From Collimonas sp. OK412 (GTDB lineage Bacteria > Pseudomonadota > Gammaproteobacteria > Burkholderiales > Burkholderiaceae_D): a stretch of 64,000 nucleotides of DNA. The position numbers and the translations under genes were made by a program. Of this stretch, positions 19,145-21,660 are shown piece after piece. The number at the start of each line of letters is the position of its first letter. The stretch's first letter is position 1. The stretch lies in NCBI RefSeq assembly GCF_900112135.1, contig NZ_FOLC01000009.1:115727-179726 (forward strand), read 5' to 3'. Below the pieces are notes generated by a model, which was not told where the DNA came from, did not search any database, and saw only the letters and a list, made by a program, of their open reading frames with translations.

Positions 19145-19687
19145 TTAACCCACCAGCCGGCCGCCGCGCACCCGCAAGCCCTTCTTGGCCAGGCCCGGCG
19201 CCAGCGCACTCAGATGCGCCAGTGCCTCGCCGCTGTGGGCGTGGCAGATCGCCACCGCCAGCGCATCGGCGGCATCGGTGCCAGGCAACCCCGGCAGCTG
19301 CAGCAGCCGCTGCACCATGTCCTGCACCTGCTGCTTTTGCGCCTTGCCATGGCCGGCGACCGCCTGCTTGATCTGCAAGGCGGTATATTCAGCCACCGGC
19401 AAATCCGCGCTGACCAAGGCGCAAATCGCTGCGCCGCGGGCTTGCCCCAGCAGCAGCGTCGATTGCGGATTGACGTTGACGAAGACTTTTTCGATCGCCG
19501 AGCAATCCGGCGCATAGGTGCGGATGACTTCCGAAACGCTGGCCAGGATTACCTTCAGGCGTTGCGGCAGATCGGCATCCGGGGTCTTGATGGTGCCCGA
19601 CGCAATATAGCTGAGCTTGCTGCCCTGCTTGTCGATGACGCCAAAGCCGGTGGTCCGCAGACCGGGGTCGATACCGAGGATTTTCAT
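19145..19687 (-). CDS. ruvC: Holliday junction resolvase RuvC
   Basis: RuvC is the RNase H-fold endonuclease that cuts Holliday junctions with the RuvAB motor. The 180-residue protein has the catalytic acidic residues in [17 protein letters not shown] (Asp7), [13 protein letters not shown] (Glu), and the C-terminal [20 protein letters not shown] pair of aspartates. The ATG at 19687 lies only a few bases from the left end of the structured 344-bp element, which therefore occupies its promoter region. ruvA and ruvB are not downstream, which is unusual. Confidence 0.97.
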
Positions 19688-19690
19688 ATA

Positions 19691-20034
19691 GAGCTCATTT
19701 CATCAATATTCGTGAGTGCGAACGCGGCAATTTGGGAGGTAGTGCAAGGCGCGCCGCGCAGCCAAGGGTGGCCCTTGCCGGTCGCGTTTCCGCTTGCAAG
19801 CGGAAACCGTTCCGCAGGCGGACAGCATGCTGTCCGAATTCCCTGCTACACCCCTTGGCAAGCGGCGCAACGCAGCAATACGCCCAAATTGCCCGTTCCC
19901 GAAGGGTTCTTGCCAGAAGAGGCGCTGGCCGCGTTGCGCTCCTTGCCGATAGCACCGCTATCGGACGCGTCGCGCGCCTTGCCAGCGCCTCTTCTGGCAA
20001 GAACGCATCTCACGAATATTGATGAAATGAGCTC
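19691..20034. mobile_element. 344-bp MITE-like element with 26-bp perfect terminal inverted repeats and TA flanks
   Basis: The ends 19691-19716 and 20009-20034 are perfect inverted copies of each other (26 bp, beginning GAGCTCATTTCATCAATATT), and TA stands immediately outside each end (19689-19690 and 20035-20036). TA duplication is typical of Tc1/mariner and IS630-type insertions, so a non-autonomous element is likely. The interior is almost completely self-complementary: an arm closed by 19720-19736 with 19883-19898, which contains a 22-bp palindrome (19786-19807) and an 18-bp palindrome (19819-19836); and a second arm with a perfect 24-bp stem (19906-19929 with 19981-20004) holding CCGATAGC/GCTATCGG at its tip. 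No transposase frame is present; the open frames are by-products of the repeats. It fills the ruvC-purH gap. Confidence 0.7.
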
Positions 20035-20045
20035 TAACCAGACAA

Positions 20046-20086
20046 TGACCGAAGCGCTTCGCCGTGGCAAGCACGAAGCGCCGGTC
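20046..20086 (-). terminator. Hairpin downstream of purH, possible terminator
   Basis: Just past the purH stop, arms GACCG..GCGCTTCG and CGAAGCGC..CGGTC pair (20046-20060 with 20074-20086, one two-base bulge). There is no good U-tract, so termination is uncertain; it could equally belong to the adjacent structured element. Confidence 0.4.
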
Positions 20087-20094
20087 GCTGCTAC

Positions 20095-21660
20095 TTAGTG
20101 ACGGAAGTGGCGGGTGCCGGTGAGCAGCATGACGACGCCATGTTCGTCGGCGGCGTCGATCACTTCCTGGTCGCGCATCGAACCGCCTGGCTGCACCACG
20201 CAGGTGGCGCCGGCGTCGACCACGACATCGAGGCCGTCGCGGAACGGGAAAAACGCATCCGAGGCGACCGCCGAACCGACCAGCGACAAACCGGCATTCT
20301 GCGCCTTGATCGAAGCAATGCGGGCCGAATCAACCCGGCTCATCTGGCCGGCGCCGACGCCCAAGGTCATGCCATTGCCGCAAAACACGATGGCGTTCGA
20401 CTTGACGAACTTGGCGACGCGCCAGGCAAACATCAGGTCCTGCAGCTGTTGCTGGGTCGGCTGCTTCTTGCTTACCACCTTGAGTTCGCTCAGGGCGACG
20501 TTGCGCGCATCCGGTGATTGCACCAGCAGGCCGCCGCCGACCCGCTTGAAATCATGCAGGTTGATAGCGTGCGCTAGCGGGATTTCCAGCAAGCGTACAT
20601 TCTGCTTGGCGGCAAAAACCTGCTTCGCCTGTTCCGTGAAGGACGGCGCGATGATGACTTCGACGAACTGCTTGGCGACGGCTTCGGCGGCATTACCGTC
20701 GAGTTCCTGGTTGAAGGCGATGATGCCGCCAAAGGCTGAAGTCGGATCGGTTTGCAGCGCCTTGCTATACGCTTCCAGCGGATTGTTGCCGATGGCGACG
20801 CCGCAGGGATTGGCGTGCTTGATGATGACGCATGCAGTTTCGTTGAAAGTCTTGACGCATTCCCACGCCGCATCGGCGTCGGCGATATTGTTGTAGGACA
20901 GCTCTTTACCCTGCAACTGCCTGTAGTTGGCCAGCGCACCTTCAACATGGCGGGTATCGCGGTAAAACGCCGCCGACTGGTGCGGGTTTTCGCCGTAACG
21001 CATTTCCTGCACCTTTTCGAAATGCAGGTTCAACGTCGCCGGATAGGCGCTGCGGGTAGTGTGCTGCTTGTCTTCGCCCAGCGAAGTGAAATAGTTGGTG
21101 ATGGCGCCGTCGTATTGAGCGGTATGGGCAAACACCTTCTTCGCCAGCGCAAATTTGGTGCCGTAGCCGACTTCGCCGTCGTGCGCCTTGAGCTCGGCCA
21201 GCACGCCGGCGTAATCGCTGGGATCGCACAGCACGATCACATCCTTATGGTTCTTGGCCGACGAACGCAGCATGGCAGGGCCGCCGATATCGATATTCTC
21301 GATCGCGTCTTCCAGCGAGCACTGCTCCTTGGCGATGGTCTGCTGGAACGGGTAGAGATTGACCACCACCATGTCGATCACCGGAATCTGGTGCTGCGCC
21401 AGGGCCGCGACATGCTCGGGGAAATCACGGCGGGCCAGGATGCCGCCATGCACTTTCGGATGCAGGGTCTTGACGCGGCCGTCGAGCATTTCCGGGAAAC
21501 CGGTGTAATCCGCCACTTCAGTCACCTTGATGCCGTTGTCGGCCAGCAGCTTGGCGGTGCCGCCCGTCGACAGAATGTTCACACCCAGCGCCGACAGCTC
21601 TTTTGCGAAATCAAGTATCCCGGTTTTGTCGGATACGGAAATGAGGGCTTGTTTAATCAT
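20095..21660 (-). CDS. purH: Bifunctional AICAR transformylase / IMP cyclohydrolase PurH
   Basis: PurH carries out the last two steps of de novo IMP synthesis. The 521-residue protein has the N-terminal MGS-like IMP cyclohydrolase domain ([51 protein letters not shown]) and the C-terminal transformylase domain with the conserved [11 protein letters not shown] and the ending [27 protein letters not shown]. It follows fis by 117 bp on the same strand. The order dusB-fis-purH-ruvC is common in Burkholderiales. Confidence 0.98.

Follow-up and report, generated by a model that had tools for sequence, protein, structure and literature searches.

The window, a stretch of 64,000 nucleotides from Collimonas sp. 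OK412, carries a mobile element at 19689-20036, between ruvC and purH, whose insertion with duplication of a TA target is confirmed by empty sites in related genomes. We consider it probable that this is a MITE mobilised by an IS5-family transposase and selected to fold as DNA. The observations behind this reading are the TA-duplicating insertion, the presence of more than one end type around the same core, a fold conserved in many families of the order, and covariation that follows Watson-Crick rather than wobble pairing. The parts of the element are listed in Table 1; their coordinates were read from the sequence and the predicted fold, and the third pair of the mini-hairpin was placed by hand.

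Table 1. The element in the window and its neighbouring genes
Feature	Coordinates	Strand	Remarks
Whole element with both TA	19689..20036	.	19691-20034 in the sequence-only reading, plus TA on each side; supported by empty sites
Left terminal inverted repeat, 5' strand of outer stem P1, type-2 end TAGAGCTCATTTCATCAATATT...	19689..19716	+	
Right terminal inverted repeat, 3' strand of outer stem P1	20009..20036	+	
Conserved TGCG, where the inner end of P1 meets the junction	19717..19720	+	pairs with CGCA 20004-20007
Lone unpaired T beside CGCA	20008	+	
Arm A (AACG ... CGTT), nested repeat at its tip	19721..19897	+	
Dispersed palindromic repeat nested in the arm A tip	19771..19853	+	holds the 22-bp and 18-bp palindromes
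Mini-hairpin CCC-GAA-GGG, supplying the fourth helix at the four-way junction	19898..19906	+	
Arm B (TTC ... GAA)	19907..20003	+	internal motif is approximately that of arm A inverted
ruvC, neighbouring gene with its start codon beside the element	19145..19687	-	name as in the sequence-only reading
purH, neighbouring gene on the opposite side, with its end towards the element	20095..21660	-	name as in the sequence-only reading

The terminal arms (19689-19716 and 20009-20036) are 100% complementary over 28 nt, TA included. A reading made from the sequence alone (the sequence-only reading) had described perfect 26-bp terminal repeats with TA outside them; the perfect pairing holds, and its extent grows to 28 nt when TA is counted. 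The nested arm described there is also present, with 19901-19929 pairing with 19981-20009 at 93%, as are, by direct reading, the palindromes of 22 bp (19786-19807) and 18 bp (19819-19836). A separate nested repeat, 19771-19853, encloses both palindromes; it has copies of its own in the congeners G130, G186 and G028 and is missing from a shorter copy of the element (G000:C29:207022-207255). This ~83-bp palindromic repeat with two variable hairpins (19771-19853; loci L582-L601, L492 and L178) adjoins CCTTG-like motifs in the tips of several palindromic elements, and is found on a Cupriavidus metallidurans megaplasmid as well as in the three congeners. The distance to ruvC had been given as four bases; its ATG is the complement of 19685-19687, which leaves one base to the TA and three to the inner element.

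The flanks on the ruvC and purH sides both match in 15 of 15 genomes of the genus, the source genome included. Among the other 14 congeners, the longest gap between the flanks is 168 bases and none is element-sized. In G153, the two flank matches, at 95% identity, overlap in nothing but the two bases TA, and the empty site reads TTTTCATATAACCAGACG; the empty site of G186 reads TTTTCATATAGCCAGACG. These are the empty TA sites that had been sought in element-free relatives, and the element in the window has TA at both of its borders. Together with the dispersed copies described below, they bear out the proposal of a MITE-like mobile element with TA duplication and no transposase of its own. As in other MITEs, the element is short and non-coding, with perfect or near-perfect terminal inverted repeats. 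The suggestion that it carries the ruvC promoter or separates ruvC from purH transcription fared worse: 14 congeners keep both flanks with no element-sized gap, and a consensus scan of 19600-20150 returned 0 sigma-70-like and 0 terminator-like matches, on which we rejected a promoter or terminator role.

Several copies are dispersed in the source genome. A DNA search of this genome found a 234-bp copy with the same ends and without the nested tips (C29:207022-207255). It also found an end standing alone at C26, a decayed one at C25, and other copies whose ends differ. The 17-base core pattern occurs there at 13 places with at most two mismatches. The 10 exact places show the fold or part of it, the three inexact ones do not, and two of the exact ones carry the end type of the window. 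With at most one mismatch, the core is present in 39 of 294 genomes of the family, including 14 of the 15 of the genus. From the fetched loci we extracted 96 elements. Inclusion called for a near-exact core and for pairing at 18 or more of 26 bases, which leaves badly decayed copies out of this set. Complete copies are about 200-420 bp long.

Some copies depart from the full form. Mini-elements that keep the ends and TA and have lost the arms are seen at L005, L289, L304 and L316 (38 bp) and at L343, L528 and L549 (53-61 bp). The copy at G000:C27:49949 (L027) is 166 bp long, has lost arm B and retains a perfect 27-bp outer stem. At G000:C29:56584 (L016/L028) the outer stem ends in GGGGCGTG, without TA, and both arms are altered in step. 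In G186, contigs C4, C42, C51, C75, C81 and C122 have a core match at bases 17-45; these contigs start inside copies, which suggests that copies interrupt the assembly and makes copy counts for G186 lower bounds.

The type-1 end, TAGGGCCTGTT, begins 83 of the 96 copies, and the type-2 end, TAGAGCTCATTTCATCAATAT, begins 13, the copy in the window among them; one core thus occurs on more than one end type. Transposons with closely similar ends are present in the Herbaspirillum-like genome G026. One (L557) is 830 bp long with type-1 ends and TA at both borders; another (L562/L558) is about 875 bp long and its ends, TAGAATTCATTTCATAAATA and TAGAACCCATTTCATAAATA, are close to type 2. The reading frame of L557 matches the IS5-family model NF033580 (IS5_3) at 6.4e-48. 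That of L562, where the first reading frame alone was scanned, matches it at 6.3e-32 (111.1 bits against a cut-off of 110). The frames also match Pfam DDE_Tnp_1 and DUF4096. Because these transposons carry IS5-family transposases, the element would most likely be moved in trans by an enzyme of this family. It resembles IS5-family insertion sequences (NF033580, IS5_3) in its ends and in the TA at the outer borders (L557, L562), and differs from them in having no transposase gene; no likeness past the ends was noticed. Exact and near-exact end patterns gave no inverted end pairs at transposon distance for type 2 in 15 Collimonas genomes and none for type 1 in 7, which is why the mobiliser is inferred from the Herbaspirillum-like genome. 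The sequence-only reading had taken the TA flanks to indicate Tc1/mariner- or IS630-like mobilisation. TA duplication does fit such a source, but the partners found with both end types are IS5_3, and on these partners we set a Tc1/IS630 source aside as unsupported.

Three further observations concern the ends. Immediately inside the left end of L562/L558 is a type-1-like end, TAGGGTCTGTTAAC. A third end type, approximately TAAGAGGCTGTTGCAAACACA, flanks elements in G130 (L586-L599). These share the tip repeat and have arm-like motifs, which hints that modular palindromic elements make up a larger set. At L066/L190, a type-1 and a type-2 element in two genomes have a left flank in common at 85%, possibly two insertions in one neighbourhood.

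The right-end pattern AACGCA-N(16-23)-ACAGRCCCTA, which detects type-1 ends only, matches 28 of 399 genomes of the order, in 21 of 158 genera; the reversed-pattern control gave 8 single matches. When one locus was read per matching genome, 21 of the 28, from 13 families, had a left end that matched at 20 or more of 30 bases; two of the seven that fail lie at contig ends. Run on 369 genomes of the class, a similar pattern with a gap of 17-21 hit the source genome and, of the 365 outside the order, one; this sole out-of-order locus, L577, is a complete element. DNA relatives are found on megaplasmids of Burkholderia, Paraburkholderia and Caballeronia (8 records, 27 places), and the mini-hairpin loop is about 20 bases long in the three Burkholderia loci examined. 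A plasmid search with a 49-base end gave three chance-level matches only, and a type-1 element had no match against plasmids. A search of viral contigs returned at least 80 matching loci, taken as matches only. Among the matches listed in a broader search, many were stretches from unrelated phyla without element ends save chance repeats; from that search we used the Collimonas and Herbaspirillum stretches. The element occurs in numerous families of a single order, and our searches of open-access full text turned up no description of it. Passages of PMC4666352 and PMC13155455 contain nothing on it.

The relatives share one fold plan: an outer stem, two long arms and a mini-hairpin, joined in a four-way junction. 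We examined it in an alignment of 41 elements hand-picked for variety (A1), comprising 17 of the 21 order-level loci with a matching left end, 22 of the 96 extracted elements and two of the three Burkholderia loci (L489 did not fit the expression). For the 74 pairs of the fold of L011, 94.2% of cells are paired and 62 pairs show change on both sides. Cells changed on both sides number 706, against 194 +/- 11 in shuffled and 119-193 in slid versions, a comparison that favours the real over the slid versions because the structure comes from a single member. The structure that RNAalifold itself derives for A1 has 85 pairs on the same plan, 74 of them with both-sided changes. The check for covariation among copies thus indicates a real structural constraint.

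These figures bear on the view of the element as an ordinary MITE, in which the arms would be what remains of palindromes inserted into one another, and a common ancestor alone would account for the shared fold. The arm tips do hold nested repeats, and interior identity within Collimonas is high (mean 0.913 between genomes). Descent alone, however, does not yield both-sided changes with retained pairing, and with 62 of 74 pairs so changed and pairing at 94.2% across the order we give this view very little weight.

The shape itself is conserved in detail. Invariant letters cluster at the junction (GCG, CC, GGGTT and AACGCA). The mini-hairpin, as CCC-GNA-GGG or its complement CCC-TNC-GGG, is present in 38 of the 41 copies and occurs in both orientations; the exceptions are L515, one base off, and two Burkholderia copies with long loops. 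GNA loops form extraordinarily stable DNA mini-hairpins (Yoshizawa, 1997, as cited in PMC6479982). A one-base bulge is kept in 35 of the 41 copies. The arms contain conserved unpaired letters, for example GCGTT and GCCTTG in arm B, the conserved unpaired columns being 335-341 and 384-389 in arm B and 88, 90 and 253 in arm A. The kept bulge and these unpaired letters argue for selection on a specific shape.

Such a shape could be selected as RNA or as DNA, and the sequence-only reading had left the choice between folded RNA and cruciform DNA open. A structured RNA (a regulator, terminator or insulator) would have its pairing kept at the RNA level. The predicted RNA folds are very stable on both strands: -229.1 kcal/mol (z = -18.8) for the element and -226.7 kcal/mol (z = -15.9) for the opposite strand, with 0 of 100 shuffles as good in either case. 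The complement of the mini-hairpin would moreover have a UNCG-type loop, a stable RNA loop, whereas the presence of the mini-hairpin in both orientations speaks against this reading. If selection acted on RNA, the transcribed strand should be rich in G-U and poor in A-C. In A1, the ratio of G-T to A-C is 74:62, G-T makes up 2.6% of pairs, and the ratio of one-sided to both-sided changes is 45:706. For 6S RNA from the same order, the corresponding values are 188:11, 18.9% and 116:88 (25 of 30 fetched loci under the RNAalifold structure; L624, L626, L629, L630 and L631, longer or weakest, were excluded). With the RNAalifold structure for the element as well (101:58, 3.2% and 66:870), the contrast with 6S RNA stays, but a lean towards plus-strand G-T appears. 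With the 96 elements folded singly, one strand had 316 G-U among 10296 pairs and the opposite strand 388 among 10369.

The wobble balance is uneven between helices, and this, like the 101:58 lean, counts against the DNA reading. By helix, G-T to A-C is 9:27 in P1, 46:10 in arm A, where 21 of the wobble cells sit in one column pair, and 18:25 in arm B. The P1 stems of all 96 elements give 11:32 with 16 transversions, changes that are partly inherited and not independent and that favour minus-strand wobble. The lean flips sign between P1 and arm A, which speaks against the RNA reading too. A search of Rfam with 19500-20200 and four other loci gave no match at the gathering score, the best being far below it. 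Given the lack of such an Rfam match and the wobble test with its 6S control, we rejected RNA-level structure as the main reading and consider it quite improbable. Because wobble is rare and nearly strand-balanced, unlike in 6S RNA, the pairing appears to be kept as DNA; the earlier alternative leans to its DNA side. That the substitutions obey the pairing rules of DNA and not those of RNA suggests that the folded DNA itself matters for spread.

Part of the outer stem changes quickly. At end positions 12-19, mean diversity is ~0.43 (left arm) against 0.085 in the interior, about fivefold, among 51 of the 83 type-1 copies, those of 196 bp or more that were hand-assigned to a Collimonas genome. 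Over 26 bp, 51 of the 96 stems are nevertheless perfect, 33 have one mismatch, 10 have two and 2 have three, and there are 29 distinct perfect type-1 stems. Where the interiors of two copies are ~98% identical (39 pairs), the number of differing segment sites ranges from 0 to 5 out of 10; most of these differences involve both arms together, with a mean of 2.05 matched differences. This fits a segment that is free in its letters and bound in its pairing.

The main rival explanation is that arms are corrected from one another as templates: template switching, or gene conversion between copies, would copy arm onto arm, and the fold would have no function of its own. Of six same-locus candidates, five were aligned (all but L066/L190, which has the left flank only); L010/L191 and L045/L097 were assigned by the right flank only. 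One matched change in P1 is seen in L104/L211 (flanks ~98%), and single-arm changes in L009/L193 and L045/L097. In L010/L191, P1 is unchanged and there is a matched A-T to G-C change. L178/L213 have a common site with two different variable segments, each perfect, which may reflect re-insertion or conversion. The tip of arm B switches in a coordinated manner in L009/L193 and L010/L191, between a CTGGGGCACCAG-like and a CAGGGGC..CCTG-like form at several sites jointly, as in a templated event or conversion. With one matched P1 change against two pairs with single-arm changes, these comparisons leave room for in-place correction. Correction should, however, erase the bulge (35 of 41) and the conserved unpaired letters, yet both persist across the order, and 45 of the 96 stems retain one to three uncorrected mismatches. 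It also leaves the invariant junction letters unexplained. Interior identity is 0.931 within genomes, hardly above the mean between them (0.913), so strong homogenisation inside Collimonas genomes is not seen. We judge mutational maintenance of this kind unlikely, if still a serious contender.

The reading that we prefer, an IS5-mobilised MITE selected to fold as DNA, would work as follows. A non-autonomous transposon (MITE) inserted at a TA between purH and ruvC, with IS5-family transposases probably acting in trans and reading its outermost bases. Each single strand would fold into a conserved branched DNA, in which P1 joins the ends and arms A and B and the mini-hairpin complete the four-way junction. 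The fold may help the element to move or to persist, the simplest route being that its two ends pair when the strand is single at the replication fork or in a cruciform. Single-arm changes would build up after landing. Enzymes of the IS5 family, as far as is known, work on double-stranded DNA, so a role of the fold in transposition has no known mechanism.

The element has points in common with several known systems. Among prokaryotic MITEs, which include ERIC, NEMIS/Correia and RUP, ERIC and RUP duplicate TA, as the element does. In integron attC sites, folded single-stranded DNA of variable sequence is recognised by its shape; unlike these, the element has DDE-type ends, and no cassette gene or integrase was seen alongside it. 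REPINs are linked to RAYT, and no target duplication is expected of them; the element differs in its TA duplication, its four helices and the length of its complete copies. Like prokaryotic MITEs, the element is gene-free with terminal inverted repeats and a stable fold (PMC10969869), and it departs from them in its conserved four-way junction, in DNA-level Watson-Crick covariation in many families of the order, and in carrying one core on more than one end type. REPINs are mobile hairpins of DNA, described as often showing compensatory changes (PMC3116915), and the compensatory changes of the element would agree with a REPIN-like origin, with a single-strand (HUH, RAYT-type) transposase and IS5-like ends by chance. 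The clean TA duplication at the empty site and the IS5-family transposons with the same ends make this highly improbable.

A broader reading, which we put forward tentatively and regard as doubtful, is that these elements form a mobile DNA class of wide occurrence that would be active as the folded single strand with its four-way junction. A DDE-type system would then use ends already paired in one stem, the fold would be the unit of selection, and the class would be a DNA counterpart of structured RNA. Covariation normally signals functional RNA. Here it is strong, nearly wobble-free and close to strand-balanced, as expected if folded DNA is selected. If folded DNA is indeed what is selected, selection on DNA secondary structure in DDE-type mobile elements would become directly testable.
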